In this document: piece after piece, positions 21,168 through 64,000 of the stretch | Layout of the letters: every line of letters starts with the position of its first letter | Position numbering within the stretch: position 1 is the first letter of the stretch | NCBI GenBank assembly: GCA_003194525.1 | Contig: NBIV01000312.1 | Span: 32,994-96,993 of the forward strand | Direction of reading: 5' to 3' | DNA length: 64,000 bases | Source of the DNA: Gracilariopsis chorda | Taxonomy: Eukaryota > Rhodophyta > Florideophyceae > Gracilariales > Gracilariaceae | The notes under the pieces: generated by a model | What the model was told of the DNA's origin: nothing | The model's input: only the letters and a program-made list of their open reading frames with translations | Database searches by the model: none | Made by a program: the position numbers and the translations under genes

Positions 21168-21170
21168 AAG

Positions 21171-23446: not shown

Positions 23447-23463
23447 CTGAGGGAGTCTCCCCT

Positions 23464-24321: not shown

Positions 24322-24781
24322 AACACCAAGTAATTGGGAGTGTAACCCCCCATCCTATGGGAATGCTGCCAACAAAGATGACAGCCGCCGATGTACTCGG
24401 AGTTACCACCTCTTCCGAGGAGTTCGCCCCGCCGTCCGAAGACGTCAATTCTAAGGAGGGGGAGGAAACCGCTACTTCAGCGTCGAACATACCGAGTAAC
24501 TCGGAATTGCGAACCACACCTGTTCCACAGGACAATGCTCCATCGAGCAACGACCGGATTGATCCGGAAAAAGCACTTGAAGCGCTGGACTTCAGCCACG
24601 TGCCAGAGTCGCACCGCGACAAACTCCGTATTATGTTACGGTAATTCACCACAATGTGGGATGGCTCGCTTGGCGAGATTAATGCAACGGAACACCGGAT
24701 CGATTTAATCCCCGGTGCGCGACCGGTTGCACAACCCCTTACAGGGCAGGTCCGAAAGCTCGGGAAGAGGAGCAGTCCCAG
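24210..24781 (+). pseudogene. pol: E2 pol part 2: protease to reverse transcriptase linker
   Basis: Frame 3 from 24210 reads VPFRILVANLGKHPQYLVKHQ and ends at a TAA at 24642-24644. The same frame then continues FTTMWDGSLGEINATEHRIDL, the conserved segment just before reverse transcriptase, so the TAA is an internal nonsense codon. Near 24750 the similarity shifts to the frame of the next segment. Confidence 0.8.
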
Positions 24782-28459: not shown

Positions 28460-28567
28460 TTAGCCCAAGGCAACCCGTCAGTAGCCGGGGACACCATGGC
28501 ATCGCCGGAACGTATGGTGCAGAGCGCTCGTGCGCCTGGCAGGTAGGCGGTTTGCCACCCAATCACC

Positions 28568-29143
28568 GTGTCGCACGGGACCCCCCAGGGGATTGTGGAA
28601 ATGCCGATCCCGCAGGAGCGGTCATCTTCCCGCAAACTGGCGGTTCGTGAGCTCAACCGCGAAGGCGGAACCCAAGTCCCCCGCCGACTGGCGGTTCGCC
28701 CGCAATACCGCGAAAGCGGAAATGAACCTTCCCCAATGGGGAATGACTTGCCGGTGAAAACCGTGGCACCACACACCCTCCTGAGGGATATCTTCCCGCA
28801 TGAGCAGCGGCCGCTATCACATCGCACGGCAACGCCGGAGTTATCGCCGAACACCCTGCTAAGGGACATCATACCGCACAGCGGGCAGCCCCCGCAAGGA
28901 AGTACAACCACCACCCGGCACGGCCGGCAGGTCTACGAACGAGAGTTCGTAGTAGACCGACTTGTCGGACAGACCTGGGACCAGGATGGTATTCTACAAT
29001 ACCGCGTCCGCTGGTACGGGTATGACCCCAGTGGGGATACGTGGGAGCCAATCGAACACCTCCCACGGTCGCAGGTGCTGCGATACCACCGTCAAACGGG
29101 GACTGCAGCCCCAGCCACGCTGGTTAATGCCCAAGCTGGGTAA
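28568..29143 (+). pseudogene. E2 pol part 4: chromodomain
   Basis: Same frame as the integrase ORF but separated from it by two stops (TAG at 28457-28459 and near 28544). It contains the chromodomain core REFVVDRLVGQ, LQYRVRWYGYDPSGDTWEP and IEHL at about 28936-29075. The listed first codon is GTG and need not be a real start; the segment is most simply the C-terminus of pol. Confidence 0.85.
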
Positions 29144-29385
29144 CGTTGCCGCGCGAGCGGAGAGCGAAAGGAAAGGATAACAAGGCAAGGGCTGTCGAAG
29201 ACGGGGAACTCAAACGAGAATCACCGTTCTAAACGGGAAAGTTTATTTAAGGAAGCAGCTAGCCCCCCACAATACTATACTACAATAGCCGGCTATGCCA
29301 GGAAAGAAGAACCGGAGACGGCGTACGCGCTTTTATCACCCATTTTCGTCTGGGAACCCTGCGCGTCCGCGGTCGTTTTCCCGTC

Positions 29386-29399
29386 TTAGGGGGGGGATA
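29386..29399 (+). other. Polypurine tract of E2
   Basis: TTAGGGGGGGGATA abuts the 3' LTR and would prime plus-strand DNA synthesis. Confidence 0.75.
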
Positions 29400-30224
29400 T
29401 GTAGTGCAACGCCCTCAGGGAGGGATTCTTGGTACTTGAACGCTTTCCCGATATTATCGGTTGTGTAGTGTGTATATGAACTACGCCCCACTATGGTGGA
29501 TATGGACACGTGGGAAACGGTTTTCGGTCAATTGGCGGTTGGCCACAGTAGTGGATGTTGCCACGAAATGTGGAGTATTTTAGTTAATATTATTTATTAT
29601 TTTCACACCCATTTCTGGGAAGCTAGTACTTAGTGCGACGGCGCACTGCCGTCGCACCAGTAAACCTTCCCCAACAAGGGACCCCAACCTGGGGAATTGG
29701 CTCTAGTTGTTGCCGCTTGCGCGCGTACTCTACTCCTCCTTGGAGGGAAACGCCGTAAACCACGGGACATCTAACCCCCTTGCACATCTAAAGAAGCCCA
29801 TCCTTGGGAGTACAATTGTTCCAATCATATTGGTGTTTCGCCCTGTATAGGGATATTGTTACCGGCATCGCCGTTCGTCCCCGTCGCTCCCGCGACTCAC
29901 TTCGCCCTCTTCTTCTCCACTTCGCCCTTCCTTTTTCCCCTTTTTAGGGTAGCACCTCCCGCTATCCGCGGCCCTCGTGTGCGCATCCGCTCACACACCC
30001 CCACTTACGTGGAAACATACCTCTACTGAGGATCACACCCCGCTCACGCGGATACGGATTCTTCGCCTTCACCTCCCTGCGCGAGTCGCGACCGGTGTCC
30101 CTGGTCTTACAAACCGGCTTCGCCGTGACACCTCTGGGAGGGCTCTACCCAACTGAGTTCACCTCGTGAGAGGAAGATCCCGAACGTCTTTCGGTGTTTT
30201 TCCCCTTTGGGGCATTGCACCACA
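29400..30224 (+). repeat. 3' LTR of E2
   Basis: About 99% identical to the 5' LTR. Immediately preceded by a G-rich polypurine tract. Confidence 0.95.
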
Positions 30225-38391: not shown

Positions 38392-38844
38392 ATGGCTGGT
38401 CGGCCCTTCCACAGCAGGTATGGCGGCGGTACCGGTTTGCGTCCATTTGGCTGCTTTCTCGGCAAGTGGCACGTGGCCGCTACCATGCCATTGGTAGCCT
38501 ACGAGCGGGCCTCATTACTAATGAGTCTCAACTGCGGGGCGCTCCTCGTGCTCCTGCATTGCACCGACCCCTGGCGCGGACGCCCATACTTCCCTCTAGA
38601 TTACCTCGTCCTTCTGGTCGCTCTTTTCTTCGCATACCGCCTTGGTGCATCCACCATCCCCGCCCCTTCGGTAGATCGTGGTGCATTCCCTTGGCCTTTC
38701 AGATTCCTGACCGTTGGTCTCCACGGGCTCCGTGTCCGCCGTGCCGGCTTATCGATCGCGTCTACGCCATGTCCTCAGGGGCATATAAGGGCTCCCATGG
38801 CTACCTCTTGGACTATGATGGCTTCGAGCCTATCCCTCGGGTGA
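38392..38844 (+). CDS. Overlapping 150-codon hydrophobic ORF of E4 (orfX)
   Basis: Lies upstream of and overlapping the start of the aORF (from 38768) in another frame. It contains two hydrophobic stretches, around LLMSLNCGALLVLLHC and YFPLDYLVLLVALFFAYRL, that could be membrane segments. An ORF of exactly 150 codons with nearly the same sequence occurs at the same place in E3 (49278-49730, minus strand). Preserved length in two diverged copies suggests it may be translated. Alternatively it is a chance open frame in a constrained leader. Confidence 0.4.
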   Translation: MAGRPFHSRYGGGTGLRPFGCFLGKWHVAATMPLVAYERASLLMSLNCGALLVLLHCTDPWRGRPYFPLDYLVLLVALFFAYRLGASTIPAPSVDRGAFPWPFRFLTVGLHGLRVRRAGLSIASTPCPQGHIRAPMATSWTMMASSLSLG

Positions 38845-39982
38845 CCATAACTGTAGAATCGACCAACATGGCTCTGGTCCCCAGCAGCACATATGCCCAC
38901 CCTGGGGAGAAGTACGACCACACCTTGGGTTGGAATCCTATGGCCGTGAGGAGTACCCATTTACCCAGTTCGGTCACTGAGTTCGTGCGGTATGCTGACC
39001 AATACTTGGACGCCCGGCGGCTCGCTGCGATCCCCAACTATGCCCTTGAGAAGACGAACTCCCAGGAGGACTCCTGGTACAACCTTTGGCTCCACCTTCC
39101 TGCTGATGCCCGTTCGGTCGCGGGTTGCCGCGCTCTTGTCCCACTGGATATGCCCTTCGTCCGCTGCGGCGAGGAGTCTGATTACCAATGGAGAGTAAAC
39201 AAGCTCCTGGAGGACTTGTATTCGATGCATGGTGACCCTAAGGCCCCCTTTCCTCCCCCTGGTCATAGCCTCTTGGGGTTAGTCTGCTTCAGACCTCCAT
39301 ACGACTGCTTATACTGGTTATCGAACCGGAAATATTGGAATGATATGATCGAACCGGATGGTCGTATTCGAACCAACCTCAAGTACTTCTTCTGTTGGCA
39401 CCAAGTGGAGTTTCACGATATGCCTCCATCTCGCAGGTCTTCTCTATATCTCCCGCTACCTCCACTTAGCGCTGGACCTGAGGCCGCCATTTGGCACGTT
39501 TCCAATCTCCTTATGGTACTTACTCCGTCCGTGGTGGCCTACCACACCTATCAGCTCCAGGGGGACTTCACTAAACGTCTCCCCTGGCTGACCTGGCAGG
39601 TGTTTGCCGAATGGGCCGTGTTCTGTTTCATGGTCTTTCTGGGTACCGCCCGCAATGGGGTCCAAGCTAACGTCCGGGAGGCCGACTGCCGTATCTGGAA
39701 CGAGCGGGTTCTTCCCAGTCCTGAAGGCCCACTCTTCCCTCTTCCGCGGCACTGGATCCGGCTCATCCGTGAGTTGGGGGTGCAGAACATAGTCCGGGAT
39801 ACGGAGTACGAGGTTGAAGAGGCCGAGGCCCTATTGGATTATGTCCTTCAGGTCGACTGGGCGCAGACCCCCGGGTTCCTTCGGTACGATTATGACACGG
39901 ACACCTTCTCCCCGATCCCGAGACATCCTCTGGTCAATGAAGACGAGAACGCCTACCAAGCCAGACCATTGCTGGCTGTCCC
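38768..39982 (+). pseudogene. aORF of E4, first part (interrupted by E3)
   Basis: Antisense gene of lineage 2. The start at MSSGAYKGSHGYLLDYDG is chosen because in E3 a stop separates this methionine from the upstream frame. In E4 the frame is open further upstream, to 38466. Conserved blocks: HLPSSVTEFVRYADQYLDA, PPGHSLLGLVCFRPPYD, LKYFFCWHQVEFHDMPPS, WQVFAEWAVFCFMVFLGTA, EEAEALLDYVLQVDWAQTPG. Cut after LLAVPV by the E3 5' LTR; the gene resumes at 50861. No known domain recognised, and there is no gag-like zinc knuckle or protease motif. Confidence 0.8.
39978..39982 (+). repeat. Left target duplication of E3 (GTCCC)
   Basis: GTCCC before the 5' LTR; ATCCC (50856-50860) follows the 3' LTR. 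One mismatch. The undisturbed sequence in the E3 aORF (complement, GCTGTCCCCGTGAA) confirms the join. Confidence 0.85.
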
Positions 39983-40508
39983 TGTAGGAGAATGACCATT
40001 GGGCAGATGCAGTCGTGAGGTAACCATGGGGCTGGGCTGGCAGAGGTCAGAACATTGCTGGCCGAAATATTCCACGTGGCCAAGCTGGGTGCCTATGCAG
40101 GAGATAAGAGGGGACAGTGCGTGTGCCAAGGCACTGTGGCCATAGGGTTTATTATGTAGCTAATCTTATTTAATTTGTTAGGATAGTGTCCGGAGGTCAG
40201 AGCGCCTCGCCAGCTATATAGGCTGGTTCGAGTGCCGCCGACCTCTGAAGAGTAAAGACACGCACCCTCACCGTCTTCTTGGCGCCATATGCAGCCAGTA
40301 GGACTCCAAAGGCCTCCAAGCCATCGCTACCATTCTCCCGACCTGTAGGGACTTGAGATAGCGCCCGGCCATTGCCCCTCGCTGCCAGTTGGTGCCCGCG
40401 TCACCAATAGATCCAGTGGATTGTCACCCCAGTGGTTGGCTCTCTGCCGCTAGAAACCCCTAGTAGACCACTACTTCAGTTGGCCAATGGACGTAGTATT
40501 CTACTACA
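39983..40508 (+). repeat. 5' LTR of E3
   Basis: TGTAGGAGAATGACC ... GTATTCTACTACA. A TATA-like CTATATAGG lies at 40214-40222. Confidence 0.95.
40214..40222 (+). promoter_or_regulatory. TATA box in the lineage-2 LTR
   Basis: CTATATAGG, conserved in the 3' LTR (about 50562). It lies roughly midway along the LTR, a usual place for the U3 promoter. Confidence 0.6.
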
Positions 40509-40510
40509 AC

Positions 40511-42921: not shown

Positions 42922-44937
42922 ATGACAGGGGTTTCGAGTCGGGTGTATGCTGTGGACCAATGGGAAGACCTGGAGGACGCTGTTTGGGTCCTGAGGAAAA
43001 ATAACTACAAGGTACAGGGAACCTTGGGACTACAAGCCAATACCACAAGGAAGTTTACGGCCGTATTGGATACTGGAGCAGGCCCCAATCTGGTACATTC
43101 CAAGGTCTTACCATTGGGCTGGGAAAGGATGATACAGGAAAAGAAGTCACCGAAGGTAACGGACGCATCACGTCAGCCAATGGACATTCGCGGAATACTT
43201 CCGCTTTACGTCCAATTGGGTCACCTGAAGTTTAAGACTTGGTTTCTTGTATGTCCGAACCTGGGGGCAGAAGGGATCCTAGGGACGAGCTTTATTGATA
43301 GATATGTAAAGGCAATCTATCCTGGCCAAAAGAGGGTGGCTTTCTATCTAGGACCACCATTGGCGATTGTCGGCTCGCGCCCTGGACCCGAGGCTGCCCC
43401 AGCTAAAGTCAAGTTTCCCACGAGGACCGTGTGCAACATGGTCAGATTGGCAAAAGCGATAGTCATACCACCTATGACCCACGTAGCCGCTGCAGCGGTA
43501 TGCGAGTCCTCAGGTCTGGTTTTGTTGCAAATCCATCCCAAGTTGGTAACGAAACACCTTTCCCTCATGGCCAATGGAATAATGAATGTGGTACCCAACC
43601 GGCCCTTTGCGGTCACGATGAGCAACTTCCGTGACAAGCCTACAAGGCTACCCAAGGGTGCAGTGTTGGGGGTATCTAGGCCTGCTCCAGTGGCCATTAT
43701 GGAGATTGATGCGGAGAAGTTGCTTCCTGGGGGTGGACCACAGGCCAATTGGGAAAACGACTTCAACCTTGGCGATGACTTTGAACCACATAGGAAGCAA
43801 GTCATTGATCTCCTCAAGGACTTTGCTAGCATGTGGAGTGGAAAGCTGGGCGAGATCGATGCCACAAGGCATCGAATTGACCTTAAGGACGGGGCCACGC
43901 CCCAATATCAGCACCCATATCAGACTGGCCTAAAAGGACGAGAGGTGGTAGCCAAGGAGGTTGAGAAAATGAAGTCCGCTGAGGTCATTGAGCGTGCACC
44001 ATCCACTGAGGCCGAATGGGCTAGCCCTTTTGTCCTAGTGGCCAAGAAGGACGGGACCGTACCGTTTTGTATTGATTACCGCAAACTAAATGCGGTGACC
44101 AAGAGGGATACTTACCCTATCCCCCGTATGGACGACTGCTTAGACTCCCTTGGAGACGCGCAAATTTTCACCACGTTGGATGCCAATTGTAGGTATTGGC
44201 AGGTTCCCATGGACGACAAGGCGAAGTCGCTGACTACCTTCACGACCCACGAGGGATTATTTCGATTTCCACGGATGCCCTTTGGTCTTATGAATGCGCC
44301 AGTTACTTTCCAGCGGGCCATGGACATCATTTTGTCCAGGGTCAAATGGAAGTTCGCCTTGGTCTACCTGGATGATGTGATCATCTTTTCCAGGTCCATT
44401 AGGGAACACTTCGCACATGTGAAGGCATTCCTTAGGTTACTCCAGCAGGCTGGTGTCACACTGAAATTGAAGAAGTGCTTCTTCTTCCAGCCCTCCGTGG
44501 ACTACCTCGGCCATATGGTTCTGCCGGGTAAACTCCAAGTAGCCCAAGTTACAACAAAGGCCTTACGGGAAGCACGAACCCCTAGGACCCATAGGGAATT
44601 GCGCTCCTTCCTTGTTCTTTGTAATGTTTACCGTCGGGTTGTCCCAGAGTTCGCGAAAATTGCAGCACCTCTCAATGAGATGCTGAAGAAAGGGACCGCT
44701 TCGGAATTTGACGACCTCACGGACGAGCAGCATGAGGCCTACCAGAACCTCAAGGACCATTTGGTTAATCCGCCGGTCTTGGCGCTACCCAAGGCCAATA
44801 AACCGTATATCCTAGATACGGACGCATCTGCGACCCAAGTGGGCTGTGCCCTTCTACAAGAGCAGGAGTCCCCTAAGGATTATTCGCCCAATTGGCTACT
44901 GGAGAAGGTCCCTGACCAAGGCCGAAAGGTACTATAG
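42922..44937 (+). CDS. pol: E3 pol part 1: protease, reverse transcriptase, start of RNase H
   Basis: 671 residues. Protease: FTAVLDTGAGPNLVHS near residue 48, with the catalytic Asp intact, and ILGTSFIDRYVKAI. Reverse transcriptase: FCIDYRKLNAV near 380 and LVYLDDVIIFS near 480. RNase H begins at LDTDASATQVGCALL and runs into a frameshift near 44900 (frame 1 to frame 2), so this ORF ends in out-of-frame residues. Pol lies in the -1 frame relative to gag, as in E2. Confidence 0.9.
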   Translation: MTGVSSRVYAVDQWEDLEDAVWVLRKNNYKVQGTLGLQANTTRKFTAVLDTGAGPNLVHSKVLPLGWERMIQEKKSPKVTDASRQPMDIRGILPLYVQLGHLKFKTWFLVCPNLGAEGILGTSFIDRYVKAIYPGQKRVAFYLGPPLAIVGSRPGPEAAPAKVKFPTRTVCNMVRLAKAIVIPPMTHVAAAAVCESSGLVLLQIHPKLVTKHLSLMANGIMNVVPNRPFAVTMSNFRDKPTRLPKGAVLGVSRPAPVAIMEIDAEKLLPGGGPQANWENDFNLGDDFEPHRKQVIDLLKDFASMWSGKLGEIDATRHRIDLKDGATPQYQHPYQTGLKGREVVAKEVEKMKSAEVIERAPSTEAEWASPFVLVAKKDGTVPFCIDYRKLNAVTKRDTYPIPRMDDCLDSLGDAQIFTTLDANCRYWQVPMDDKAKSLTTFTTHEGLFRFPRMPFGLMNAPVTFQRAMDIILSRVKWKFALVYLDDVIIFSRSIREHFAHVKAFLRLLQQAGVTLKLKKCFFFQPSVDYLGHMVLPGKLQVAQVTTKALREARTPRTHRELRSFLVLCNVYRRVVPEFAKIAAPLNEMLKKGTASEFDDLTDEQHEAYQNLKDHLVNPPVLALPKANKPYILDTDASATQVGCALLQEQESPKDYSPNWLLEKVPDQGRKVL

Positions 44938-46345
44938 CACCACGGAAAAGGAATGTTTGGCCATCGTGTGGTCAGTGCTCCATCTTTGGCCTTATTTGGA
45001 AGGAACTCGCTTTACCATTAGGACAGACCACCACTCCCTCCGCTGGATACTGAACATGACGGACGCATCTTCCCGTCTGGCCCGATGGAGATTGCGCCTG
45101 GCCGAATTCGATTACGAAGTGACCTATAGGCCAGGGCTGAAACATCAGGCCGCAGATGCGCTGTCACGCATCCTGACCGATGGTACCTACCAAACTCCCC
45201 TGGACGATGAGATTCCCACCATCTGGGACAGACCACAGTACACTGATGACGAGGGAGAGGAACCACCCGTGGCTGAGGTGAGAATGGCCGAATGGACGGA
45301 CGGACACGGCGCAGCGATCTTATGCGCCGTGGACTGGGAAGATCCACCATCGGATATCCATATGGCCCAGTCGGAAAGCGCAGACCTTACCCCAATACCC
45401 CTCGAGGAATTCCTTCAGGCCCAGAAAACGGACGAATACTGCGCCCAGATAGGAGAGAAAGTAGGGACCCCTGGGTCGCTGTTTGATTATGACCACCGAG
45501 GCATATTATGTCGCAGGTCACCATTGGACGGGGCGATACAGCGGGTAGTGCCTAAGGCCTTACGGGCACGCCTTCTTTACCTCGCGCACTATCCGAGGTT
45601 GGCTGGCCATCCTGGAGGGACTAAGATGTATCAGACCCTGAGGAGATACTTCTACTGGCCCCTGATGGCCAATGACATAATGGAGACCGCAAGGGCTTGT
45701 GCAGCATGCGCAAAGATCTGAGGGACAAGAGCGGTACATCAAGGGAAACTGAAGTTATTCCCAGCGGCCGGGCCTTTGGAGTTCATTGCTATTGATATCC
45801 TAGGGCCATTTCCGAAGTCGACCCACGGCAACCGATTTATATTGGTTATTACCGATCGGTTTACCAAGTTGACCCGAGCAATTCCGCTCAAATCAACAAC
45901 CGCCACGGACGTCGCCATGGCTTTCCTTGTCCATTGGATTTATCCCTATGGACTGCCACTATATCTCCTTACGGACAATGGCTCCCAGTTTGTCTCCAAA
46001 TTCTTTGAGCATGAGTGCTCGGCCTTAGGTCTAAAACATCTCCTCACCACCGCGTACCATCCACAGACCAATGGACAAGCCGAAAGGTGTAACCGAACTC
46101 TGGGCAAGAGGCTAATTCACTACGTTTCCGAGCACCAATTGGACTGGGATGACTATGTCCAGCCGCTGGTCTATGCATATAATAATCAAGTGTATAAGTC
46201 CACTGGTACAACCCCCTTTGACCTCACCCTCGTACGGGCCCCGGCGCCGTACATGGTTGACCTACAGGACTTAGGAGCACCTCAGGACATAACGGAGGAA
46301 ATGACTCCCGCCCAGGCCAAACGGAAATTCGCGGAAGCGAATTGA
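44900..46345 (+). pseudogene. pol: E3 pol part 2: RNase H and integrase
   Basis: Frame 2. RNase H: RPIGYWRRSLTKAERYYSTT, ECLAIVW, RTDHHSLRWIL. Integrase zinc site: LAHYPRLAGHPGG to CAACAKI. TGA at 45719-45721 interrupts; the same frame resumes with the core: AIDILGPF, LLTDNGSQF, GQAERCNRTL, so all three acidic residues are present. It ends at a TGA at 46343-46345, after which similarity continues in frame 3. Confidence 0.88.
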
Positions 46346-46352
46346 TTCTATC

Positions 46353-47165
46353 TTGAGAGCCGCACAGACCACTTTGGACAAAGCGCAAGCGCGCTATAAG
46401 GCCGAATTTGATCGGTCCGTTTGGTTTACACCGCAAGTGGCCATGGGAGATTACGTCCACTTGGACAGACCACCGAAGGAAAAGCCCGAGGACGAGGACA
46501 TCACCAAGAAGCTGTTGCCAAAGTCCACTGGGCCCTTCAAGGTACTTAAGTCCCTTGGACACACGGTTACTATCGACCGAGATGGGCTCCAGGATACAGT
46601 CACAATGGAATGAGTCTCTCTGGCACCACGCCCACCTTGAACTGGCCCATTGGACTCGCGCGCTTTCCCTTCGTCCCAAACCCCACCCTCCATACCTACG
46701 CAACCACGGGTCAATGACCCTACAGGCCCTCAGGAACTGCAGGTCTCCGCGGATCCAGAAGGCCCTTCCCCCGATGGCTACGGTCCCCTGGATGGAATGG
46801 TACTTCCTGAAGAAGTACCCGAGCCTATGGAAACCCCCGACGCTGTTCCTTCGGACGCTGACGGGTACGGTCGCCTCGATCAGATGGACCTACCGGAGGA
46901 CGCCGGAATGAACGATCAACGGGAGTATGTCGTCGACCACATCGTCTCCGCTGGGCTCACCGACGATGGCGAAGTGCGCTACAAAGTCCGTTGGTATGGC
47001 TATGAGCCCAAGGACGATACTTGGCTTCCGAGGTCAGACATCCCGGATAATTTTGTGGCCCGCTATTGGTCAAAAACAGGCCACACGGAGCGTGATCTTA
47101 ACGAGGGGGGTATCCCTGGCCACAAATTTGCGCCAGCACGGGCCCAATCCGCCTCCACCCAATAG
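46353..47165 (+). pseudogene. E3 pol part 3: integrase C-terminus and chromodomain
   Basis: Frame 3: TTLDKAQARYKAEFDRSVWF and STGPFKVLKSLGHTVTI (integrase C-terminal SH3-like region), stop at 46611-46613. Then the same frame carries REYVVDHIVSAGL and VRYKVRWYGYEPKDDTWLP, a chromodomain, ending at 47165. Confidence 0.85.
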
Positions 47166-47520: not shown

Positions 47521-49353
47521 CTAGGACGACGCAGCCGGTTGAGAAGGAGATCCCATGCAGGCACGCTTGCGAGCCGGACTCCGGGCGGAAGAGGATGAGG
47601 CACCACCAGCGGACTCCGTGTCCGAAAGGTTAAGACCAAAGCGGTTATCAAGGTCTGTCGCGACACGCTCGGACAACACCTTAGAGTTCTCCTCCAGGAT
47701 GGTCGCTAAGGCGTCTTTGACCTCTTGGTTACGCTGAACCAGCGAGAGGTACCGCGAAGCCCGGCGAGCCCAGCATTGGGCGGAACGAAGAGCCTCTACG
47801 ATACCAGTGGGTTCAAGGATACCGACGGACGTGCATACCTTCTTCAGGTCATCGAAGGCCATCGGAATGACCTCTGGAATGCCCGGCACGGGAGGCGGAG
47901 GAGGGACCATAGGGGCGGAAACCGTCATGGACGTAGGAGGTGGGGAAGCCAAGGGACCGATAGACGCCTCTGGGGGCTCTTCCACGGCAACCTCATGCGC
48001 TGGCACGAAAGATGGCGCTACCGATGGGGCCGGTACAGGAACTACTGCCTGCTCCCGGACTGGATGACGAAGACAATCTTCGTGAAACCCAATGGCCTGA
48101 GGATAGTAATACGGCACGGACTGACGTGGCTCGTTCACGGGGACAGCCAGCAATGGTTTGGACTGGTAGACGTTCCCGTCGTCATTGCGTAAAGGATGTC
48201 GCGGGATCGGAAAGAAGGTGTCGGTGTCGTAGTCGTACCAAAGGAACCCGGGGGTCTGCGCCCAGTCGACCTGAAGGACATAATCCAATAGGGCCTCGGC
48301 CTCTTCACTCTCGTACTCTGTACCCCGGACAATGTTCTGCACCCCCAACTCACGGATGAGCCGGATCCAGTGCCGCGGAAGAGGCAAAAGTCGGCCTTCA
48401 GGACTGGGAAGAACCCGCTCGTTCCAGATACGGCAGTCGGCCTCCCGGACGTTAGCTTGGACCCCATAGCGGGCGGTACCCAGAAAGGCCATGAAACAGA
48501 ACACGGCCCATTCGGCAAACACCTGCCAGGTCAGCCAAGGGAGACGTTTAGTGAAGTCCTCCTGGAGCTGATAGGTGTGGTAGGCCACCACGGACGGAGT
48601 AGGGACCATAAGGAGATTGGAAACGTGCCAGATGGCAGCCTCAGGTCCGGCGCTAAGTGACGGTAGCATGAGATATAGAGAAGACCTGCGGGACGGAGGC
48701 ATATCGTGAAATTACACTTGGTGCCAACAGAAGAAGTACTTGAGGGTGGTTCGAATACAACCATCGGGTTCGATCATATCATTCCAATAGTTCCGGTTCG
48801 ATAACCAGTACAAGCGGTCGTATGGAGGTCTGAAGCAGACTAACCCCAAGAGGCTATGACCAGGGGGAGGAAAGGGGGCCTTAGGGTCACCATGCATCGA
48901 ATACAAGTCCTCCAGGAGCTTATTGACTCTCCCTTGGTAATCAGACTCCTCGCCGCAGCGGACGAAGGGCATATCCAGTGGGACCAGAGCGCGGCAACGC
49001 GCGACCGAACGGGCATCAGCAGGAAGGTGGAGCCAACGGTTGTACCAGGAGTCCTCCTGGGAGTTCTTCTTCGCGCGGGCATAGTTGGGGATCGCAGCGA
49101 ACCGCCCGGCGTCCAAGTATTGATCAGCATACCGCACGAACTCGGCGACCGAACTGGGTAGATGGGTACTCCTCATGGCCATAGGATTCCGACCCAAAGT
49201 GTGGTCGTACTTCTCCCCAGGGTGGGCATATGCACTGCTGGGGACCAGAGCCATGTTGGTCGATTCTACAGTTATGGTCACCCGAGGGATAGGCTCGAAG
49301 CCGTCATAGTCCAAGAGGTAGCCATGGGAGCCCTTATATGCCCCTGAGGACAT
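47521..49353 (-). pseudogene. aORF of E3 (antisense gene), one internal stop
   Basis: About 610 codons on the strand opposite to gag-pol, between pol and the 3' LTR. It starts MSSGAYKGSHGYLLDYDG at 49353. The only break is a stop at 48712-48714 (TAA), where the E4 copy has Glu (HQVEFHDMPPS). The C-terminal third is Pro/Val/Ala-rich, then FDDLKKVCTSVGILEPTG and WARRASRYLSLVQRNQEVKD, a helical block, and a Ser/Arg-rich end. The E4 copy and the more distant E1b copy show it is conserved across two lineages. I recognise no domain. It could be an accessory or regulatory protein, or the opposite-strand transcript itself may matter. Confidence 0.8.
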
Positions 49354-49730
49354 GGCGTAGACGCGATCGACAAGCCGTCACAGCGGACACGGTGCCAGGG
49401 GAGACCAACGGTCAGGAATCTGAAAGGCCAAGGGAATGCACCACGACCTACCGAAGGGGCGGGGATGGTGGATGCACCAAGGCGGTATGCGAAGAAAAGA
49501 GCGACCAGAAGGACGAGGTAATCTAGAGGGAAGTATGGGCGCCCGCGCCAGGGGTCGGTGAAATGCAGGAGCACGAGAAGTGCCCCGCAGTGGAGACTCA
49601 TTTGTAATGAGGTCCCCTCGTAGGCGACCAATGGCATGGTAGCGGCCACGTGCCACTTGCCGAAAAAGCAGCCAAATGGACGCAAACCGGTACCGCCGCC
49701 ATACCTGCTGTGGAAGGGCCGACCAACCAT
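49278..49730 (-). CDS. Overlapping 150-codon hydrophobic ORF of E3 (orfX)
   Basis: Same length, position and frame relation to the aORF as 38392-38844. Starts MAGRPFHSRYGGGTGLRPFG and has the same hydrophobic stretches. A third, shortened copy begins at 50181 in the duplicated leader. Confidence 0.4.
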   Translation of the reverse strand: MVGRPFHSRYGGGTGLRPFGCFFGKWHVAATMPLVAYEGTSLQMSLHCGALLVLLHFTDPWRGRPYFPLDYLVLLVALFFAYRLGASTIPAPSVGRGAFPWPFRFLTVGLPWHRVRCDGLSIASTPCPQGHIRAPMATSWTMTASSLSLG

Positions 49731-50330
49731 GTCAACCAGGGGGCGAGAGACCTAATCGGGAGAGAGGACGCGAGAACGACAACCCCATTGGGCGGGAGGA
49801 AAGAACGCCAGCGGAAGAAAAGAATAGCTCACCGACGGGGAAGCCGCCGACGGGACGTCGGATCTTAAAGGGAAAGGTCTGTAGGAGAATGACAATTAGG
49901 CAGGTGCAGTGGTGAAGTAACCATGGGGCTGGGCTGGCAGAGGTCAGAACATCGCTGCCCGAAATATTCCACGTGGCCAAGCTGGGTTCCTAGGTAGGAG
50001 ATACCAGGTGAAATGCAGGAGCACGAGGAGCGCCTTGCCGTTGGGACTCACTAGTTAATGATGCCCCCTCGTAGGCGACCAATGGCAGGGTAGCGGCCAC
50101 GTGCCACTTGCCGAAAAAGCAGCCAAATGGACGCAAACCGGTACCGCCGCCGTACCTGCTGTGGAAGGGCCTACCAGCCATGTCAACCAGGAGGAGAGAG
50201 ACCTAGTCGGGAGAGAGGGCGCGAGCACAACAACGCCATTGGGCGGGAGGAAAGAACGCCAGCGAAAGAAAAGAATAGCTCACCAACGGGGAAGTTTCCG
50301 ACGGGACGTCGGATCTTAAGGGGGTAAGTC
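49557..50330. repeat. Tandem duplication at the 3' end of E3
   Basis: The segment from 49557 (GGTGAAATGCAGGAGCACGA) to about 50005 includes the aORF leader, a purine tract (about 49866-49879) and the first 125 bp of an LTR (49880-50004). The leader is then repeated from about 50007 to 50330 before the complete 3' LTR. The partial LTR matches the E4 subfamily (GTTCCTAGGTAGGAGAT) rather than the E3 LTR (GTGCCTATGCAGGAGAT), pointing to recombination between subfamilies. Confidence 0.85.
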
Positions 50331-50855
50331 TGTAGGAGAATGACCATTGGGCAGATGCAGTGGTGAGGTAACCATGAGGCTGGGCTGGCAGAGGTCAGAA
50401 CATTGCTGGCCGGAATATTCCACGTGGCGAAGTTGGGTGCCTATGCAGGAGATACGAGAGGACAGTGCGTGTGCCAAGGCACTGTGGCCATAGGGTTTAT
50501 TATGTAGCTAATCTTATTTAATTTGTTAGGATAGTGTCCGGAGGTCAGAGCGCCTCGCCAGCTATATAGGCTGGCTCGAGTGCCGCCGACCTCTGAAGAG
50601 TAAAGGCAAGCACCCTCACTGTCTTCTTGCCACCATATGCAGCCAGTAGGACTCCAAAGGCCTCCAAGCCATCGCTACATTCTCCCGACCTGTAGAGACT
50701 TGAGATAGCGCCCGGCCATTGCACCTCGCTGCCAGTTGGTGCCCGTGTCACTAATAGACCCAGTGGATTCTCACCCCAGTGGTTGGCTCTCTGCCGCTAC
50801 TAACCCCTAGTAGACCACTATTTCAGTTGGGCAAACGACGTAGTATTCTACTACA
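50331..50855 (+). repeat. 3' LTR of E3
   Basis: Preceded by a purine-rich TTAAGGGGGTAAGTC. Same ends as the 5' LTR, with roughly 25 differences by eye. Confidence 0.95.
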
Positions 50856-50860
50856 ATCCC

Positions 50861-51498
50861 CGTGAATGGGCGACGTTCGTAGGTGCCGGATTACTACCAT
50901 CAGGCCATTGGGTTTCACGAAGATTGTCTTCGTCCTCCAGTCCGGGAGCTAGCGGTAGTTCCTGTACCGGCCCCATCGGTTGCGCCATTTTTCGTGCCGG
51001 CGCATGATGTTGCCGTGGTAGAGCCCCCAGAGGCGTCTATCGGTCCTTTTGATTCCCAATCTCCTACGTCCATGACGGTTTCCGCCCCTGTGGTCCCTCC
51101 TCCGCTGCCTGTGCCGTTCATTCCTGAGGTCATTGCAATGGCCTTCGATGACCTGAAGAAGGTATGCACGTCCGTCGGTATCCTTGAACCCACTGGTATC
51201 GTAGAGGCTCTTCGTTCCGCCCAATGCTGGGCTCGCCGGGCTTCGTGGTACCTCTCGCTGGTTCAGCGTAACCAAGAAGTTAAAGACGCCTTAGCGACCA
51301 TCCTGGAGAAGACCTCTACGGTGTTGTCCTAGCGTGTCGCGACAGACCTTGATAACCGCTTTGATCTTAACGTTTCGAACACGGAGTCTGCTGGTGGTGC
51401 CTCATCCTCTTCCACCTAGAGTCTGGCTCGCAAGCGCGCCCGCACGAGATCGCCTTCTCAGCCGGCTGCGTCTTTTAGTGGTCGTCCTTACGGCTAGT
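50861..51498 (+). pseudogene. aORF of E4, second part
   Basis: Resumes the reading frame cut at 39982: YHQAIGFHEDC, FDDLKKVCTSVGILEPTG, WARRASWYLSLVQRNQEVKD, ending with TAG at 51496-51498. In-frame stops occur near 50880, at 51330-51332 and near 51418. E4 sequence ends exactly at this stop; what follows is host duplication sequence. Confidence 0.85.
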
Positions 51499-53055
51499 AA
51501 AACACACACACAATCCGCTCAGAAAGGCCAGCCAAAGAAGTGACCCACGACGACAACAACAACGTACCACAAATGCACCCTACATAACTCATTCGAAAAG
51601 CGCCGTGGCACGCGCCATCGTTTTCCAACGGCGCGCCTCGCTTGCCAACTGTCACCTGCTGTATATATCTTACATCCTGCACAAGACATTGTGTGGAGTC
51701 CCGCCATCGTGCTCTACGAGCAGCAGCAGCATCGAGTGTATTCTTGGGAACCGGTTACGTATCTAGGGTTCCATACTCGCGCTCCCTAACAGTCTGATTC
51801 AGCAAAAAAAGTCATAAGAAAGCATTGGAAAGTGGAACTACCATCGGCGACACTCACTTTCAATGGGGTGTAATTGCTACAGCAGAGCAGCTCTATGTTG
51901 CCGAAAAGAATGTGAATTACTCTGACGTGCATCTTGGATCACTTACCGTAAGTCCGTCAGTCCAAAGCACTTTTGAGCTCCTGCCGGTTTCTATGACATG
52001 AGAAGCATCTTTGCGTTTCGAGGTAGAGAACCCTTTGTAATGCTCACTCTGTACGTTTGGAGCTGACGAATCATTGGACCAGCTCCAATGACAGAATTGC
52101 TGTTGCATGTCCATTGATGAATGCCGATGACGCGGTGTGATAGTAAAAAAATGATGACGTACGTACTGGTTTCGATCGAGTGCGCGTACGGATACGCGAA
52201 TTGCAAAAGGATACACGAGGTGGCCTCCATACATGGTAACTTTCTATTGTCAAAATGAAGCTATACTCCCAAGCTTCAAAAACAGGGAAACTGATGGAAC
52301 TGAGATCCACTTGACCAGGTAGCACAAATCATTTGCCAGTTTTGTTTTATGAGATTACGTGGAGAAACCTGTACTTTGAAACTTGATAGAAGCGTCATCT
52401 CTATCCCTCTGTCTCAAAGGTCCTTCTGCTCAAAACATATTGAAACAACCTTCAGGGGCTGATTTGTAATACCAGCAAAGAAAAGCAAAAGACCACAACA
52501 AAAAGCAGACCTTTATGGTGAACATGCTCAGCGACGCATTTCAAGTATGACGTTCGCAATTCTGTAGAATGACCAGTCCGCACAGAACACATACTGTTGT
52601 ACATCAGTACACGAATTCAGCCGAGAATTTTTACAAAGTAGTACTACTCCATCCGACTGCTGAAGCAGATGCAATGGTTTCACGTTCTCGCTCTCATTTC
52701 TCCGTCATTTACATATCTTCTTTGAAAATGTAAATAGGCGGAGAGGAGAATGGGCAAAGAAATGTTATACTATTTTCGTCAAAGGAACATGGGATTACAT
52801 ATATGCGCTGTAACACGCAAATATGTCGTGTACTCCATCTCTTGTACTCTTGCCCAGTTAGCGTCTCACCGGTAACGACTTCTCACTCACGGGCTATGTC
52901 CTCATCGAATTGATCTGACTGCAAGAGGGTGAAGATCAAAGTTTGCAAATGACATGAAAGTACTTTGGAGGCTGATTGTCATGGCCCGAACGTTGAAGCT
53001 CCTCCTCCTCTTTGTCCTCCTCTTCGATGGACCCAACGATGTAGTTCCAAAGCAC

Positions 53056-53063
53056 TATAAAAG
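53056..53063 (+). promoter_or_regulatory. TATA box of secreted-protein gene 1
   Basis: TATAAAAG, 121 bp before the ATG. The equivalent is present before the other two paralogues. Confidence 0.75.
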
Positions 53064-53176
53064 ACCCCTTCTTCGACCACTCTTTCCGTGTTCACCCTCT
53101 CCACCATCCTCATCTGCAACACTAACCAACGCACCTCTCGCTTCTAACACGGTTCAAACCCTCAGTACCTTTCACT

Positions 53177-53908
53177 ATGAACGCATTCACTGCTATTGTT
53201 GCTATGTTCTTTGCCAGCTTGGCTGCGTCCTCTGCACTGGCCCACCCGGTCCATGGCGCCAAGCTCCCAATTTTGAAGATCGAGGAGTCTACGATCGCCG
53301 TGCCACTCGTCCGCCAGCAAACAGAGGAGGCTGTCTTCGCCGTTAACAGTTCCCAAAGCGGATTCGCCCGCACTTCTGAAACTGGAATCACTGTGCAGCG
53401 TGGCACCAGCGGAACACTCACCTTCTCTTTCAATGTGTTCGCTGTCGAGTCTGAGACGCTTGCTAATCTCGACCAAGAATTTGAGTCCTCTCTGACTGTC
53501 TCAGAGCGCGAGGAATATGAGAGCTTCCGATCCGAGTACAACCGGGGCTTGAACATCCCGTTCCTGAGGTGGATCGGAGTCAACCTTGGAAACTCGCAGG
53601 TCACTCGCGAAGAAATGGAGCGCAGCTTCGAACTTCGTGAAAACTACAACACCCAGTCCAGCATTGCCCAGCAGATTGTGCAGAACGTGCAACAGCAGAA
53701 TATTCAGGTATCCGGATCGCTCACAGCGTTCGGAACTAGTTTCATCCCGACAACTGTGTTTGCTTTCGTTCGCATTGCTCGCGTCACGCTTCAAGACGGC
53801 AGCACGATGACTGTTGTGTCGCAGAGCGGTAGCGATCTGGTTGCTGCTGATGCCGGTGGAAACACTGTCCCGTCTTCCGGCGGTACCATCAACACTATCC
53901 CGCTCTAA
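53177..53908 (+). CDS. Secreted protein, 243 aa (paralogue 1)
   Basis: MNAFTAIVAMFFASLAASSALA is a clear signal peptide, with likely cleavage before HPVHG. The mature protein of about 220 residues is rich in Ser, Thr, Gln and Val, has no cysteine and no second membrane segment. It contains a charged helical centre (DQEFESSLTVSEREEYESF) and a C-terminal beta-like half (FVRIARVTLQDGSTMTVVSQ). I do not recognise a domain. A TATA box lies 121 bp upstream and AATAAA at about 54062. Its nearest relatives are the copies at 55891 and 63122. Likely exported to the cell surface or wall, or outside the cell; role unknown. Confidence 0.85.
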   Translation: MNAFTAIVAMFFASLAASSALAHPVHGAKLPILKIEESTIAVPLVRQQTEEAVFAVNSSQSGFARTSETGITVQRGTSGTLTFSFNVFAVESETLANLDQEFESSLTVSEREEYESFRSEYNRGLNIPFLRWIGVNLGNSQVTREEMERSFELRENYNTQSSIAQQIVQNVQQQNIQVSGSLTAFGTSFIPTTVFAFVRIARVTLQDGSTMTVVSQSGSDLVAADAGGNTVPSSGGTINTIPL

Positions 53909-54061
53909 GCGACCGGCTACCTGTAACTCTCAACTTTCGTGTACTCATTGAAAGCTTGACAACGTCTTATGCCACAGCAATATGTGTGCATGAAAGATTA
54001 GCGTGGTTTGGACTGTTTGTGGAAGTGGTTGTAGTATACGTCTGTTTTGCAAGTCCAAAGC

Positions 54062-59086: not shown

Positions 59087-59330
59087 AAACACACACACAA
59101 TCCGCTCAGAAAGGCCAGCCAAAGAAGTGACCCACGACGACAACAACAACGTACCACAAATGCACCCTACATAACTCATTCGAAAAGCGCCGTGGCACGC
59201 GCCATCGTTTTTCCAACGGCGCGCCTCGCTTGCCAACTGTCACCTGCTGTATATATCTTACATCCTGCACAAGACATTGTGTGGAGTCCCGCCATCGTGC
59301 TCTACGAGCAGCAGCAGCATCGAGTGTATT
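59087..59330. repeat. Right copy of the segmental duplication, first part
   Basis: Matches 51499-51742. Ends in GTATT, the left target duplication of insertion F (59326-59330). Confidence 0.9.
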
Positions 59331-59592
59331 TGTTAGGCATTCCCCCCCAACTGTTGCCCTAAGTGAAAAAGACTGGGAGGGGGTGGAGTCCCTATGAGAT
59401 TCGATCTCATTCTAAGGGCCAACCCCCTCTCGCCGCTTCCACCCCAGGCGCGTCCGCCTCAGCAGATGCGCGCGCTGCAACACGGTTGTTCAGCTTTTCG
59501 TGTGGAACGCCGCCGTCCAACGCTACCTTGTAAACCGCCCCCGCCTTTCTCACTCACCTGCAGCCCAACGACAGCAAACGCTGAACTTCGTC

Positions 59593-59832
59593 ATGAGAGG
59601 AGGAAACGGAGCTAAAGACACCACCAACCGCGAGTGCAATGCCGCAAAGAACAAGAAGGCCAAGGGCTCTCAGATCGATTCCAATCAGTCCGCCATGAAC
59701 ATCATTTGCAACATTTGTCGCGCCACCTTCATGTGCACTATGAAAGAAGCCTCCCTGTGCCAGCACGCTGAGAGCAAGTATCCCAAGCATCAATTCACCG
59801 ACTGCTTCCCTCATCTTGCCAAGTCCAACTAG
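59593..59832 (+). CDS. SERF/zf-met2-like small protein, 79 aa
   Basis: MRGGNGAKDTTNRECNAAKN begins a basic N-terminus of the 4F5/SERF type. A single zinc-finger-like segment follows: CNICRATFMC, then H and H in QHAESKYPKH, ending TDCFPHLAKSN. This arrangement, including the FPHL ending, matches the small eukaryotic At2g23090-like family (SERF-like N-terminus plus zf-met2). Members are usually 75-80 residues, so this copy is full length and intact. The start is chosen at the family-like MRGGN; the frame is open further upstream without similarity. It lies inside insertion F in the same orientation as the LTR, so it may be a captured or retro-copied host gene. A parental copy elsewhere is expected. 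Confidence 0.85.
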   Translation: MRGGNGAKDTTNRECNAAKNKKAKGSQIDSNQSAMNIICNICRATFMCTMKEASLCQHAESKYPKHQFTDCFPHLAKSN

Positions 59833-60470
59833 CCGCCATATCAGCAAGCGCTATCCTCACACCCCGTATCCCAACGTCACATTACTGCGCATGTACATCT
59901 CTGTCCGCATTGCTTCGCTTGCGCTTGGAAACCTTTCAGTTCGAGTCAAAACCATTTGCCTTCGCTCCCAACCTTCGCCACCTGCCTCTTCTGCCTGGAA
60001 CACCAAGGATACCCGTGGAAATGAAAAGCGCTAGGACGATTGAGAGCACCAGGGCGGCAAAAGCATTAGTGAGGCGACCAGCCATGGAGTCGTGAACGTC
60101 GCCCACATGGAACGAGGGCAAGTTTTTGCTACCGACCCGACGTCAGCGTGAAAGTGGACGTAGACGTCCGCGAACAGTGTGAGGGAAACTTCTCCGTTCT
60201 ACACCTACGTAGTCTTGGTAGTCACACCAATAGGCCCGGTTCTACCAAAGCGAAGAATATACGGAGCAGACAGGAATACAGCCCAAGTTATCGATTGCCC
60301 ATTTTGAAGTCTCTTTGAGCTTTTGTCATCGTGTGTAGAAACAGAAGAGACACGATAGCTGCCACCGCGCGCGATCGCGCAGCCATGTCGTCTCACCACC
60401 GCCGCCACCATTCGCAGTAACCGCATCTCTATTGCAACGTATACACGCAAGAAGAAGCAGTTTATTGACA

Positions 60471-60761
60471 TCATAAAGGAAAGATGGTAGCATATATTAG
60501 TCTCCTCCTCTGCAATTCTTCATCTATTGCTGTGGCCACCGCAAGCATAACACCCCTCACAAGGGGACGCCGACGAATCCGCGCCACGAATACCATTCCT
60601 TCGAGAATCCCTTGTATATATAAAAGGGGAAGGCGCTCCAAACGATATTGAAGGGAAGGCTGCAGCTCACCTACTTTCTGATGGCCATCCGCTAGAGCCA
60701 GGAGTAGGCCACCAAACTGGGCAACATCGTGAGATGGGTTGATGGCGCTGTCCTCAGGCAT
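60471..60761 (-). CDS. Antisense ORF of insertion F, 96 residues
   Basis: Minus strand, just inside the plus-strand LTR. The segment LPLLYIQGILEGMVFVARIR parallels APNLYVRGLLHVVVFSA in the antisense ORF of E5 (33038-33463), which has the same position relative to its LTR. The frame remains open some way upstream of the first methionine (EEALSIQAEYGL). No known domain. Confidence 0.45.
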   Translation of the reverse strand: MPEDSAINPSHDVAQFGGLLLALADGHQKVGELQPSLQYRLERLPLLYIQGILEGMVFVARIRRRPLVRGVMLAVATAIDEELQRRRLIYATIFPL

Positions 60762-60918
60762 CAGACCATACTCTGCCTGAATTGAGAGCGCCTCTTCGTG
60801 TGGAAGGCCCGGCCTCGGAAAGCTTCGTCATCGATGAAACGATTGCGTTTACAAGGTGGTTCCGGGGACGAAATCGTCGGATATCTCTCGAACAAGCCTG
60901 GTGACATTCGGACGTGGA

Positions 60919-61687
60919 TGTTTAGGCATAGTGGGGTGGTTGGAACAATGTTGCTGGAATCATCTGGTGTGGGAACAACGTACTATAATAGACTCAAAAA
61001 TACCCTAGGAGGTACAATGCCTTTCGCCAAACTGGTCCGTCCATGGCGAGGAAGTGTCCATGACCGATTGTTATGAGTTGTTACTTAAACCTAGTATGCG
61101 AAACTAGAGGGTATTCATATAGAACGATTGTCTATAAAAGCCCGAGTTCGGTGGCCTCCAAGCCAACTCGGGCCAGACCACTTCTCCTCTCTTCGGCAAC
61201 CCCACCTTCTCTTAGAGCAGTCTGCTCCTCCCTGCCATCAACCACACTTTTCCCCCACCTACCTTTACACGTGCTTTTTACTAACACCGCCCTTGTTTGG
61301 GCTCATCATCTGTGGCATGGTGCACTTCGGCGCATACTAGACCTAAAGTCTTGATCGTGCGTGTTGGCCGTGGTGCTATATCAGGAGTGGTCATCAGCAC
61401 TACGCTAGATCTAAGGTTTTGATCGCGTAGGTTATCCGCTGGTGCAGTCTCTTCGCTACATTGTCCCAAGCTTGTTCGCTTGTTTATACAATCACTACCT
61501 AGTTCCTTTGCTACGTAATACATTGGTTATTTGACGCAGTTTGTTTCTGTTTACTACATTGGCATTGCACGCCTGTGCTGGTACTCTCGAGCTACGATTC
61601 CATTTCTGACCTGCACTCCAGTGAACAAGGGTACAAAAAGGACTGTCATCGTCCAGTGTCGTGACAACGTGCAACATGACACTCACA
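60919..61687 (+). repeat. 3' LTR of insertion F (about 769 bp)
   Basis: Starts TGTTTAGGCATAGTGG and ends CAACATGACACTCACA. Shares the TATA block (CTATAAAAGCCCGAGTTCGG at 61132 onward) and the AAGGTTTTGATCG-like block with the E5 LTR. Confidence 0.75.
61132..61139 (+). promoter_or_regulatory. TATA box in the F LTR
   Basis: CTATAAAA, conserved with E5 (32832-32839). Confidence 0.7.
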
Positions 61688-63000
61688 GTATTCTTGGGAA
61701 CCGGTTACGTATCTAGGGTTCCATACTCGCGCTCCCTAACAGTCTGATTCAGCAAAAAAAGTCATAAGAAAGCATTGGAAAGTGGAACTACCATCGGCGA
61801 CACTCACTTTCAATGGGTGTAATTGCTACAGCAGAGCAGCTCTATGTTGCCGAAAAGAATGTGAATTACTCTGACGTGCATCTTGGATCACTTACCGTAA
61901 GTCCGTCAGTCCAAAGCACTTTTGAGCTCCTGCCGGTTTCTATGACATGAGAAGCATCTTTGCGTTTCGAGGTAGAGAACCCTTTGTAATGCTCACTCTG
62001 TACGTTTGGAGCTGACGAATCATTGGACCAGCTCCAATGACAGAATTGCTGTTGCATGTCCATTGATGAATGCCGATGACGCGGTGTGATAGTAAAAAAA
62101 TGATGACGTACGTACTGGTTTCGATCGAGTGCGCGTACGGATACGCGAATTGCAAAAGGATACACGAGGTGGCCTCCATACATGGTAACTTTCTATTGTC
62201 AAAATGAAGCTATACTCCCAAGCTTCAAAAACAGGGAAACTGATGGAACTGAGATCCACTTGACCAGGTAGCACAAATCATTTGCCAGTTTTGTTTTATG
62301 AGATTACGTGGAGAAACTGTACTTTGAAACTTGATAGAAGCGTCATCTCTATCCCTCTGTCTCAAAGGTCCTTCTGCTCAAAACATATTGAAACAACCTT
62401 CAGGGGCTGATTTGTAATACCAGCAAAGAAAAGCAAAAGACCACAACAAAAAGCAGACCTTTATGGTGAACATGCTCAGCGACGCATTTCAAGTATGACG
62501 TTCGCAATTCTGTAGAATGACCAGTCCGCACAGAACACATACTGTTGTACATCAGTACACGAATTCAGCCGAGAATTTTTGCAAAGTAGTACTACTCCAT
62601 CCGACTGCTGAAGCAGATGCAATGGTTTCACGTTCGCTCTCATTTCTCCGTCATTTACATATCTTCTTTGAAAATGTAAATAGGCGGAGAGGAGAATGGG
62701 CAAAGAAATGTTATACTATTTTCGTCAAAGGAACATGGGATTACATATATGCGCTGTAACACGCAAATATGTCGTGTACTCCATCTCTTGTACTCTTGCC
62801 CAGTCAGCGTCTCACCGGTAACGACTTCTCACTCACGGGCTATGTCCTCATCGAATTGATCTGACTGCAAGAGGGTGAAGATCAAAGTTTGCAAATGAAA
62901 TGAAAGTACTTTGAAGGCTGATGTCATGGCCCGAACGTTGAAGCTCCTCCTCCTCCTTGTCCTCCTCTTCGATGGACCCAACGATGTAGTTCCAAAGCAC

Positions 63001-63008
63001 TATAAAAG
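63001..63008 (+). promoter_or_regulatory. TATA box of secreted-protein gene 3
   Basis: TATAAAAG, 121 bp before the ATG at 63122. Confidence 0.7.
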
Positions 63009-63121
63009 ACCCCTTCTTCGACCACTCTTTCCGTGTTCACCCTCTCCACCATCCTCATCTGCAACACTAACCAACGCACCTCTCGCTTCTAACACGGTTC
63101 AAACCCTCAGTACCTTTCACT

Positions 63122-63854
63122 ATGAACGCATTCACTGCTATTGTTGCTATGTTCTTTGCCAGCTTGGCTGCGTCCTCTGCACTGGCCCACCCGGTCCATG
63201 GCGCCAAGCTCCCAATTTTGAAGATCGAGGAGTCTACGATCGCCGTGCCACTCGTCCGCCAGCAAACAGAGGAGGCTGTCTTCGCCGTTAACAGTTCCCA
63301 AAGCGGATTCGCCCGCACTTCTGAAACTGGAATCACTGTGCAGCGTGGCACCAGCGGAACACTCACCTTCTCTTTCAATGTGTTCGCTGTCGAGTCTGAG
63401 ACGCTTGCTAATCTCGACCAAGAATTTGAGTCCTCTCTGACTGTCTCAGAGCGCGAGGAATATGAGAGCTTCCGATCCGAGTACAACCGGGGCTTGAACA
63501 TCCCGTTCCTGAGGTGGATCGGAGTCAACCTTGGAAACTCGCAGGTCACTCGCGAAGAAATGGAGCGCAGCTTCGAACTTCGTGAAAACTACAACACCCA
63601 GTCCAGCATTGCCCAGCAGATTGTGCAGAACGTGCAACAGCAGAATATTCAGGTATCCGGATCGCTCACAGCGTTCGGAACTAGTTTTCATCCCGACAAC
63701 TGTGTTTGCTTTCGTTCGCATTGCTCGCGTCACGCTTCAAGACGGCAGCACGATGACTGTTGTGTCGCAGAGCGGTAGCGATCTGGTTGCTGCTGATGCT
63801 GGTGGAAACACGTCCCGTCTTCCCGGCGGTACCATCAACACTATCCGCTCTAAG
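63122..63854 (+). pseudogene. Secreted protein paralogue 3, frameshifted near the end
   Basis: Identical in protein to paralogue 1 through LTAFGTSF. An extra T near 63686 (AGTTTTCATC versus AGTTTCATC) then shifts the frame, giving a 218-residue product with an unrelated tail. Further single-base indels occur near 63811, 63825 and 63846 relative to gene 1. The cluster sits close to the window end. It is either a young pseudogene or uncorrected sequence error. Confidence 0.8.
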
Positions 63855-64000
63855 CGACCGGCTACCTGTAACTTCTCAACTTTGTGTACTCATTGAAAGC
63901 TTGACAAAGTCTTATGCCACAGCAATATGTGTGCATGAAAGATTAGCGTGGTTTGGACTGTTTGTGGAAGTGGTTGTAGTATACGTCTGTTTTGCAAGTC

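Follow-up and report, generated by a model that had tools for sequence, protein, structure and literature searches.

Several lineages of Ty3/gypsy retrotransposons in the red alga Gracilariopsis chorda carry a long gene antisense to gag-pol. Comparisons of its copies show that this gene has been passed down together with pol and that it has been under purifying selection between element subfamilies. The conserved core of the encoded protein has nonetheless been lost from a short form of one subfamily, which has recently spread. The reading that we prefer, with a probability of roughly 0.5, is that the antisense gene of several chromovirus lineages encodes a trans-acting nuclear accessory protein that would tune its own element family; its nuclear and regulatory parts draw on short motifs and on analogy with other antisense retroelement genes.

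The antisense gene in the window and across the genome

The window is the whole stretch of DNA analyzed here, 64,000 nucleotides of contig NBIV01000312.1; its features are collected in Table 1. Element E3 carries the antisense gene between pol and the 3′ LTR. The gene is read as two minus-strand frames, 47521–48711 (396 aa) and 48712–49377 (221 aa), which are in register and one stop apart, and this agrees with the first-pass annotation of the window, which had described a gene of about 610 codons with one stop on the strand opposite to gag-pol. The E3 frame is one decayed copy from a large gene family. The host element is flanked by 5 bp sequences equal at four of five positions (GTCCC/ATCCC), and a Pfam scan places its reverse transcriptase (RT) on the plus strand. 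Its pol ends in a chromodomain-like stretch that was read by eye, the Pfam Chromo domain having been scored in the related C18 pol instead.

Table 1. Positions of the antisense gene (aORF) and of associated element features in the window.
Feature	Position	Strand	Basis
E3 aORF, 610 codons	47521–49353	−	First ATG at 49353; single in-frame TAA at 48712–48714
E3 aORF, match to core profile	48097–49239	−	Core-profile search
E3 aORF, C-terminal part with short basic motif	47521–48096	−	Frame translation
E3 5′ LTR (528 bp)	39982–40509	+	LTR comparison
E3 3′ LTR	50330–50856	+	95.1% identity to 5′ LTR
E3 ORF in gag position, 351 aa	40964–42019	+	Gag by position; all Pfam matches below cut-off
E3 pol with RT, the beginning of RNase H, and a weak match to protease	42922–44937	+	Pfam
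E3 remaining pol, several frames	44846–47165	+	DNA matches to C18 pol up to 46345
E4 aORF, first part	38745–39992	+	Match to E3 pieces
E4 aORF, second part	50856–51473	+	Match to E3 pieces
Divergent E1b aORF, open middle part	8499–9080	−	Open frame
E2, interval from pol to 3′ LTR, no recognizable aORF	28460–29316		Core-profile scan and comparison with L070 DNA

E3 is inserted inside the E4 copy of the same antisense gene, and the E4 parts share 92%, 90%, and 83% amino-acid identity with the E3 pieces. E3 and E4, which had been proposed to share the gene, are one family, and E1b represents a second lineage. The related gene that had also been proposed for E1b is confirmed by a match to the core profile (8751–9047; domain E-value 2e-7) and by a two-row profile of E1b and its young relative L070, which aligns with the core profile over 200 columns (hhalign probability 96.5%, E-value 7e-10); in a four-sequence search, L070 matched the core with an HMM E-value of 3e-13. 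By these profile comparisons, the E1-type protein is a distant yet statistically significant relative of the core. The core profile found no match in E2 (20343–30224), a young element with LTRs of 825 bp that are 99.0% identical, in which a 188 aa minus-strand frame (28348–28914) overlaps the stretch between pol and the 3′ LTR. E2 is without about 730 bp that are present in an element adjoining C18, and these two elements are 91% identical.

The search covered the 91.3 Mb genome assembly (1,081 contigs). This assembly encodes light-harvesting proteins that bind chlorophyll (15 matches); the one compared is closest to PDB chains 9kc5 and 7y5e, of which 7y5e is from the red alga Porphyridium, with the cryptophyte ACPII and CAC chains next, as would fit a probable red-algal host. 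With the E3 pieces as queries and the match of the window itself counted, the C-terminal piece gave at least 117 matches and the N-terminal piece at least 150. Five or more related lineages have open antisense frames, 611–847 aa in length: the E3 subfamily (C50, 611 aa); the C18 subfamily (735 aa; nine of ten copies have no internal stop, and L037 has one); C144 (769 aa, minus strand); and, measured from stop to stop, C271 (708 aa) and C460 (847 aa). E1b adds a sixth lineage, which is divergent and high in copy number. A 193 aa E1b piece has at least 150 matches, one of which is the piece itself; the remaining 149 are 61–65% identical to it, and many sit in stop-free frames of 609 aa; a 1 kb DNA probe from L070 has at least 40 matches at 99–100% identity, itself included.

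The C18 carrier is a Ty3/gypsy chromovirus. Its LTRs of 478 bp differ at a single position (1/478) and are accompanied by the target-site duplication GATTC, and its pol contains, in this order, RT, RNase H, integrase, and a chromodomain (Pfam Chromo, E-value 2e-9). The ATG of the antisense gene lies about 330 bp from the 3′ LTR. C144 has the same layout: the plus strand carries pol and an ORF that looks gag-like by eye, and the minus strand carries the antisense gene; its pol is 59% identical to that of C18 over 898 aligned residues.

The protein and its proposed role

The core consists of about 370 residues, many of which are invariant among five aligned sequences; a proline-rich linker connects it to a helical C-terminal part. 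A structural model of the core (390 aa) is mostly helical (pLDDT 71, pTM 0.77) and matched nothing at E ≤ 0.001 among the PDB folds searched. Pfam and PDB sequences contained no convincing relative: at E ≤ 1, 47 core rows matched three Pfam families only, one row each, and PF04195 was not among them, and the antisense protein of L031 had no Pfam match at E ≤ 10. The first impression that the protein is unlike anything recognized withstood these searches. Among 5.8 billion proteins, of which the best candidates (about 8,000 per search) were scored, four unnamed homologues were found (P0001–P0004); P0001 lies on a contig of 2,530 bp and P0002 on one of 10,300 bp. Relative to P0002, identity is 33% over 49% for P0003 and 27% over 32% for P0004. 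P0004 (917 aa), the most distant homologue, contains repetitive, helix-like sequence, its C terminus is basic, and it gave weak, sub-cut-off Pfam matches to CENPH and CENP-F.

C18 and C50 have a short basic motif close to the C-terminal end, and by eye one is also present in the E3 frame and in P0001–P0004. The last 80 residues contain four RG dipeptides in C144, eight in C460, and neither RG nor the basic motif in C271; the net charge of this segment is 0 in C18 and C50, +2 in C144, +13 in C460, and −1 in C271. A low-confidence model of the C18 protein includes a long, coiled-coil-like helix (residues 618–672). With regard to a transmembrane segment such as env-like accessory ORFs would have, the top 19-residue hydropathy is 1.44–1.85 in five proteins, and in four of these it falls at the core helix.

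Genes of similar placement have been described before. According to the relevant passages of two papers, an ORF that runs antisense in the interval from pol to the 3′ LTR is known from the plant elements Grande, RIRE2, Retand, and PvRetro13, as well as from the fungal element Boty (PMC7264820, PMC11963269). The Retand ORFs (TRP28, PF04195) are stated there to occur across lineages, some with Smc-like stretches, and a DNA-binding or regulatory role has been proposed for them (PMC11963269). Retand shares with the elements described here a long ORF that is antisense to gag-pol and lies between pol and the 3′ LTR. However, its TRP28 domain is PF04195, to which the antisense proteins of the alga have no match in Pfam scans, a result that leaves room for remote homology; moreover, Retand is a non-chromovirus of angiosperms, whereas the C18 carrier has a chromodomain and resides in an alga. 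Maize Grande gene23 is presented as an accessory gene that lies antisense in the internal region toward the 3′ end, with a nuclear product and a reported promoter of its own (PMC7264820). It has the same layout as the algal gene and is likened to it by its published description only, as is the antisense ORF of Boty from Botrytis, which likewise belongs to an LTR element outside plants (PMC7264820). In HTLV, the passages concerned place an antisense promoter in the 3′ LTR and describe HBZ as a nuclear antisense product (PMC11963269, PMC7264820); the likeness of HTLV-1 HBZ is one of analogy and not of sequence. Among the openly accessible papers listed for red algae, Chondrus, and Rhodophyta, titles and abstract openings yielded no description of the gene, and the matching passages of PMC6431247, PMC2864245, and PMC8282616 do not mention it.

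The gene had been put forward as the best candidate in the window for an undescribed system. That claim has to be narrowed, since the kind of gene is already known from plants and a fungus; the apparent novelty lies in the protein family and its predicted core, and in the host and element lineage. Antisense genes of LTR retrotransposons have been reported from flowering plants and a fungus; here they are found in a distant host and in elements with a chromodomain. If the algal gene is truly unrelated to the plant proteins, antisense accessory genes have been adopted more than once.

According to the preferred reading, an antisense promoter in or beside the 3′ LTR would drive transcription of the gene. 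The product would be a nuclear protein composed of a helical core for which no known fold was matched, a segment resembling a coiled coil, and a tail bearing a short basic or RG-rich motif. It would act in trans on the nucleic acid or chromatin of the element, and would most likely tune how its own family is expressed or integrated, as has been proposed for Grande GENE23 and for retroviral antisense proteins. The nuclear and regulatory roles are suggested by short motifs and by analogy. Action in trans would also account for the continued mobility of copies that have lost the core.

Core-deleted derivatives

A probe made from the C18 LTR identified 11 complete LTR pairs in the best 40 of 91 candidates. 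Four are full-length, spanning 10,789–10,964 bp (C18, C119, C69, C196), and short pairs of exactly 9,025 bp are present at five loci (C216, C61, C253, C195, C37); the other short pairs span 9,022 bp (C28) and 8,288 bp (C4). In C61, the sole short form checked in sequence, 1.92 kb are absent; the deletion starts roughly 180 bp ahead of the antisense ATG, extends to about codon 581, and is bounded by two copies of a 9 bp repeat. The last 155–170 codons or so of the gene are retained, and the first Met of a 192-codon, stop-to-stop remnant lies within the retained part. The short form shares LTR and RT with the full C18 form and is about equally frequent. At 24 RT places with 99–100% identity, a core of 98–100% was listed in six, none was listed in 16, and two are outliers (see below); the listed copies with a core of 98–100% number at least 10.

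The recent spread of a derivative that lacks the core but shares LTR and RT with the full form shows that the core is dispensable in cis for the recent amplification of the C18 short form. The spread also fits a gene that is on its way out in the C18 subfamily. Together with E2, which has no recognizable copy, it means that the antisense gene is not obligatory for the element. A core-less frame of the E1 type adjoins C18 (L031:7669–8418, minus strand, 249 aa); in it, a stretch corresponding to sequence just past the E1-type core matches L070 with 99% identity over 192 bp.

These derivatives bear on two alternatives to the preferred reading. The protein could be a positive replication factor, that is, a structural component or a part of the pre-integration complex (for nuclear import, or as a capsid or integration cofactor) that core-deleted copies borrow. 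We consider this doubtful. Purifying selection between subfamilies, the coexistence of core-minus and full copies in one subfamily, and the combination of a coiled-coil-like helix with an NLS-like motif would all suit such a factor. However, a structural protein is expected on the genomic strand, E2 does without a recognizable copy, and neither capsid, matrix, nor integrase is significantly similar in Pfam, PDB sequences, or PDB folds, HIV capsid chains appearing in the fold search at E-values of 6.5–9.5 and TM of about 0.1.

Alternatively, the protein or its antisense RNA could restrain the copy number of the family, with deletion derivatives escaping or dampening this control and the retained C-terminal piece perhaps acting as a dominant-negative. 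The recurrence of the 9,025 bp form at five loci, the 16 of 24 near-identical RT places with no listed core, and the open 249 aa frame of L031 point in this direction. Yet a limiter acting in trans would hit the deleted copies too, and selection for self-limitation requires a benefit to the family. Furthermore, the short form keeps a C-terminal piece whose first Met is internal to the retained part, and the start of the L031 frame may not be E1-type sequence. Such a limiter is rather unlikely.

A fuller version of the preferred reading is advanced only tentatively. It holds that the gene represents a new protein family with its own fold and a long-kept trans-acting regulator of algal chromoviruses; that two element families have each given rise to core-less derivatives, of which one or more kept the C-terminal helix with an NLS-like piece and spread with the same LTR and RT; and that full and core-less forms might constitute a two-component regulatory or satellite system. 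That a single genome contains both forms, which have LTR and RT in common, is a natural experiment on antisense gene function, which thereby becomes testable.

Co-inheritance with pol and selection

Scoring of RT in the genome gave 103 places, and among the matches listed, 60 of these have an antisense-gene match no more than 9 kb downstream. The two genes are on opposite strands in 58 of the 60 pairs and on the same strand in two, whereas env-like accessory ORFs have the sense orientation. No antisense gene was found among the matches listed for the other 43 places, and two RT places have a match upstream. Over 36 opposite-strand pairs, identity to C18 of the RT and of the antisense protein is correlated with a Spearman rho of 0.87, the p-value of which is not independent evidence because the pairs share ancestry.

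Unsaturated comparison between subfamilies is provided by three pairs, with dN/dS of 0.10 for C18/C292 (378 core codons; dN 0.05, dS 0.53), 0.145 for C271/C366 (dS 0.66), and 0.20 for C50/L024 (dS 0.73). Distant core pairs, which are saturated or nearly so, give 0.08–0.39 at dS 1.7–5.3 where computable, and E1b/C53 gives 0.13 at dS 2.1, near saturation. The region after the core is less constrained, as its dN/dS is 0.23–0.78 in pairs with a computable ratio. Within subfamilies, the values are 1.13 for ten C18 copies (replacement in 33 codons, silent changes only in nine), 0.49–0.79 for C50 against eight E3-type copies (nine comparisons), 0.93 for C24/C123, 0.62 for C460/C62, 0.45 for C144/C156, and 0.70 for C271/C80. 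In five of the ten C18 copies, dN/dS is 1.02 for the antisense gene versus 0.34 for pol; because of this difference and of the value of 1.13, constraint on the gene may at present be low in the C18 subfamily. A ratio near 1 across intact copies, which the first-pass annotation had taken to speak against its proposal, was accordingly seen among the C18 copies but not between subfamilies. The overall pattern is that of a gene selected in active elements, with copies decaying after insertion.

The same annotation had taken the gene to be old and maintained rather than a captured fragment, and the opposite-strand pairs, the correlation with RT, and the three low ratios support it. Capture of a host gene or of part of another mobile element on a single occasion, with no present role in the element, would be in keeping with the failure to find a homologue of known function and with the near-neutral ratio of recent C18 copies; a place and strand shared by several lineages, divergence in step with pol, and dN/dS of 0.10–0.20 between subfamilies are unexpected for a passenger and make this origin improbable. 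Antisense frames can stay open opposite biased codons, but a mirror of a coding sense strand or a chance frame is highly improbable, given that in eight copies picked for open frames the antisense frame has no stops and each of the five other frames 7–28 (7–24 across the gene in the sense frames), that C18/C292 changes number 67/71/191 at antisense-frame codon positions 1/2/3, and that 2000 dinucleotide-Markov sequences as long as the C18 gene contained no open frame beyond 426 codons, versus 735 in the real gene.

Two of the 36 pairs are outliers, with RT 100% identical to C18 and an antisense core of 58% (C67:289664–295599) or 68% (C124:186516–192462, where the core is in pieces of 56–97%). 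It is possible that the antisense gene was swapped between subfamilies by recombination, or that these are nested fragments. At C43:129556–149885, C18-type LTRs lie 20.3 kb apart; one end of this stretch has an antisense core and the opposite end an identical RT, and there is probably a nested insertion between these LTRs.

Elsewhere in the window, a frame of 218–243 aa is repeated on the plus strand at 53177, 55891, and 63122, the first copy having no Pfam match. Direct repeats about 9.95 kb apart (51738–54055 and 61688–64000) are 95–100% identical in pieces, and there are also pieces of about 120 bp that are 7.6 kb apart. The repeat regions, 51500–54055 and 59087–64000, look like a very young element with long LTRs.
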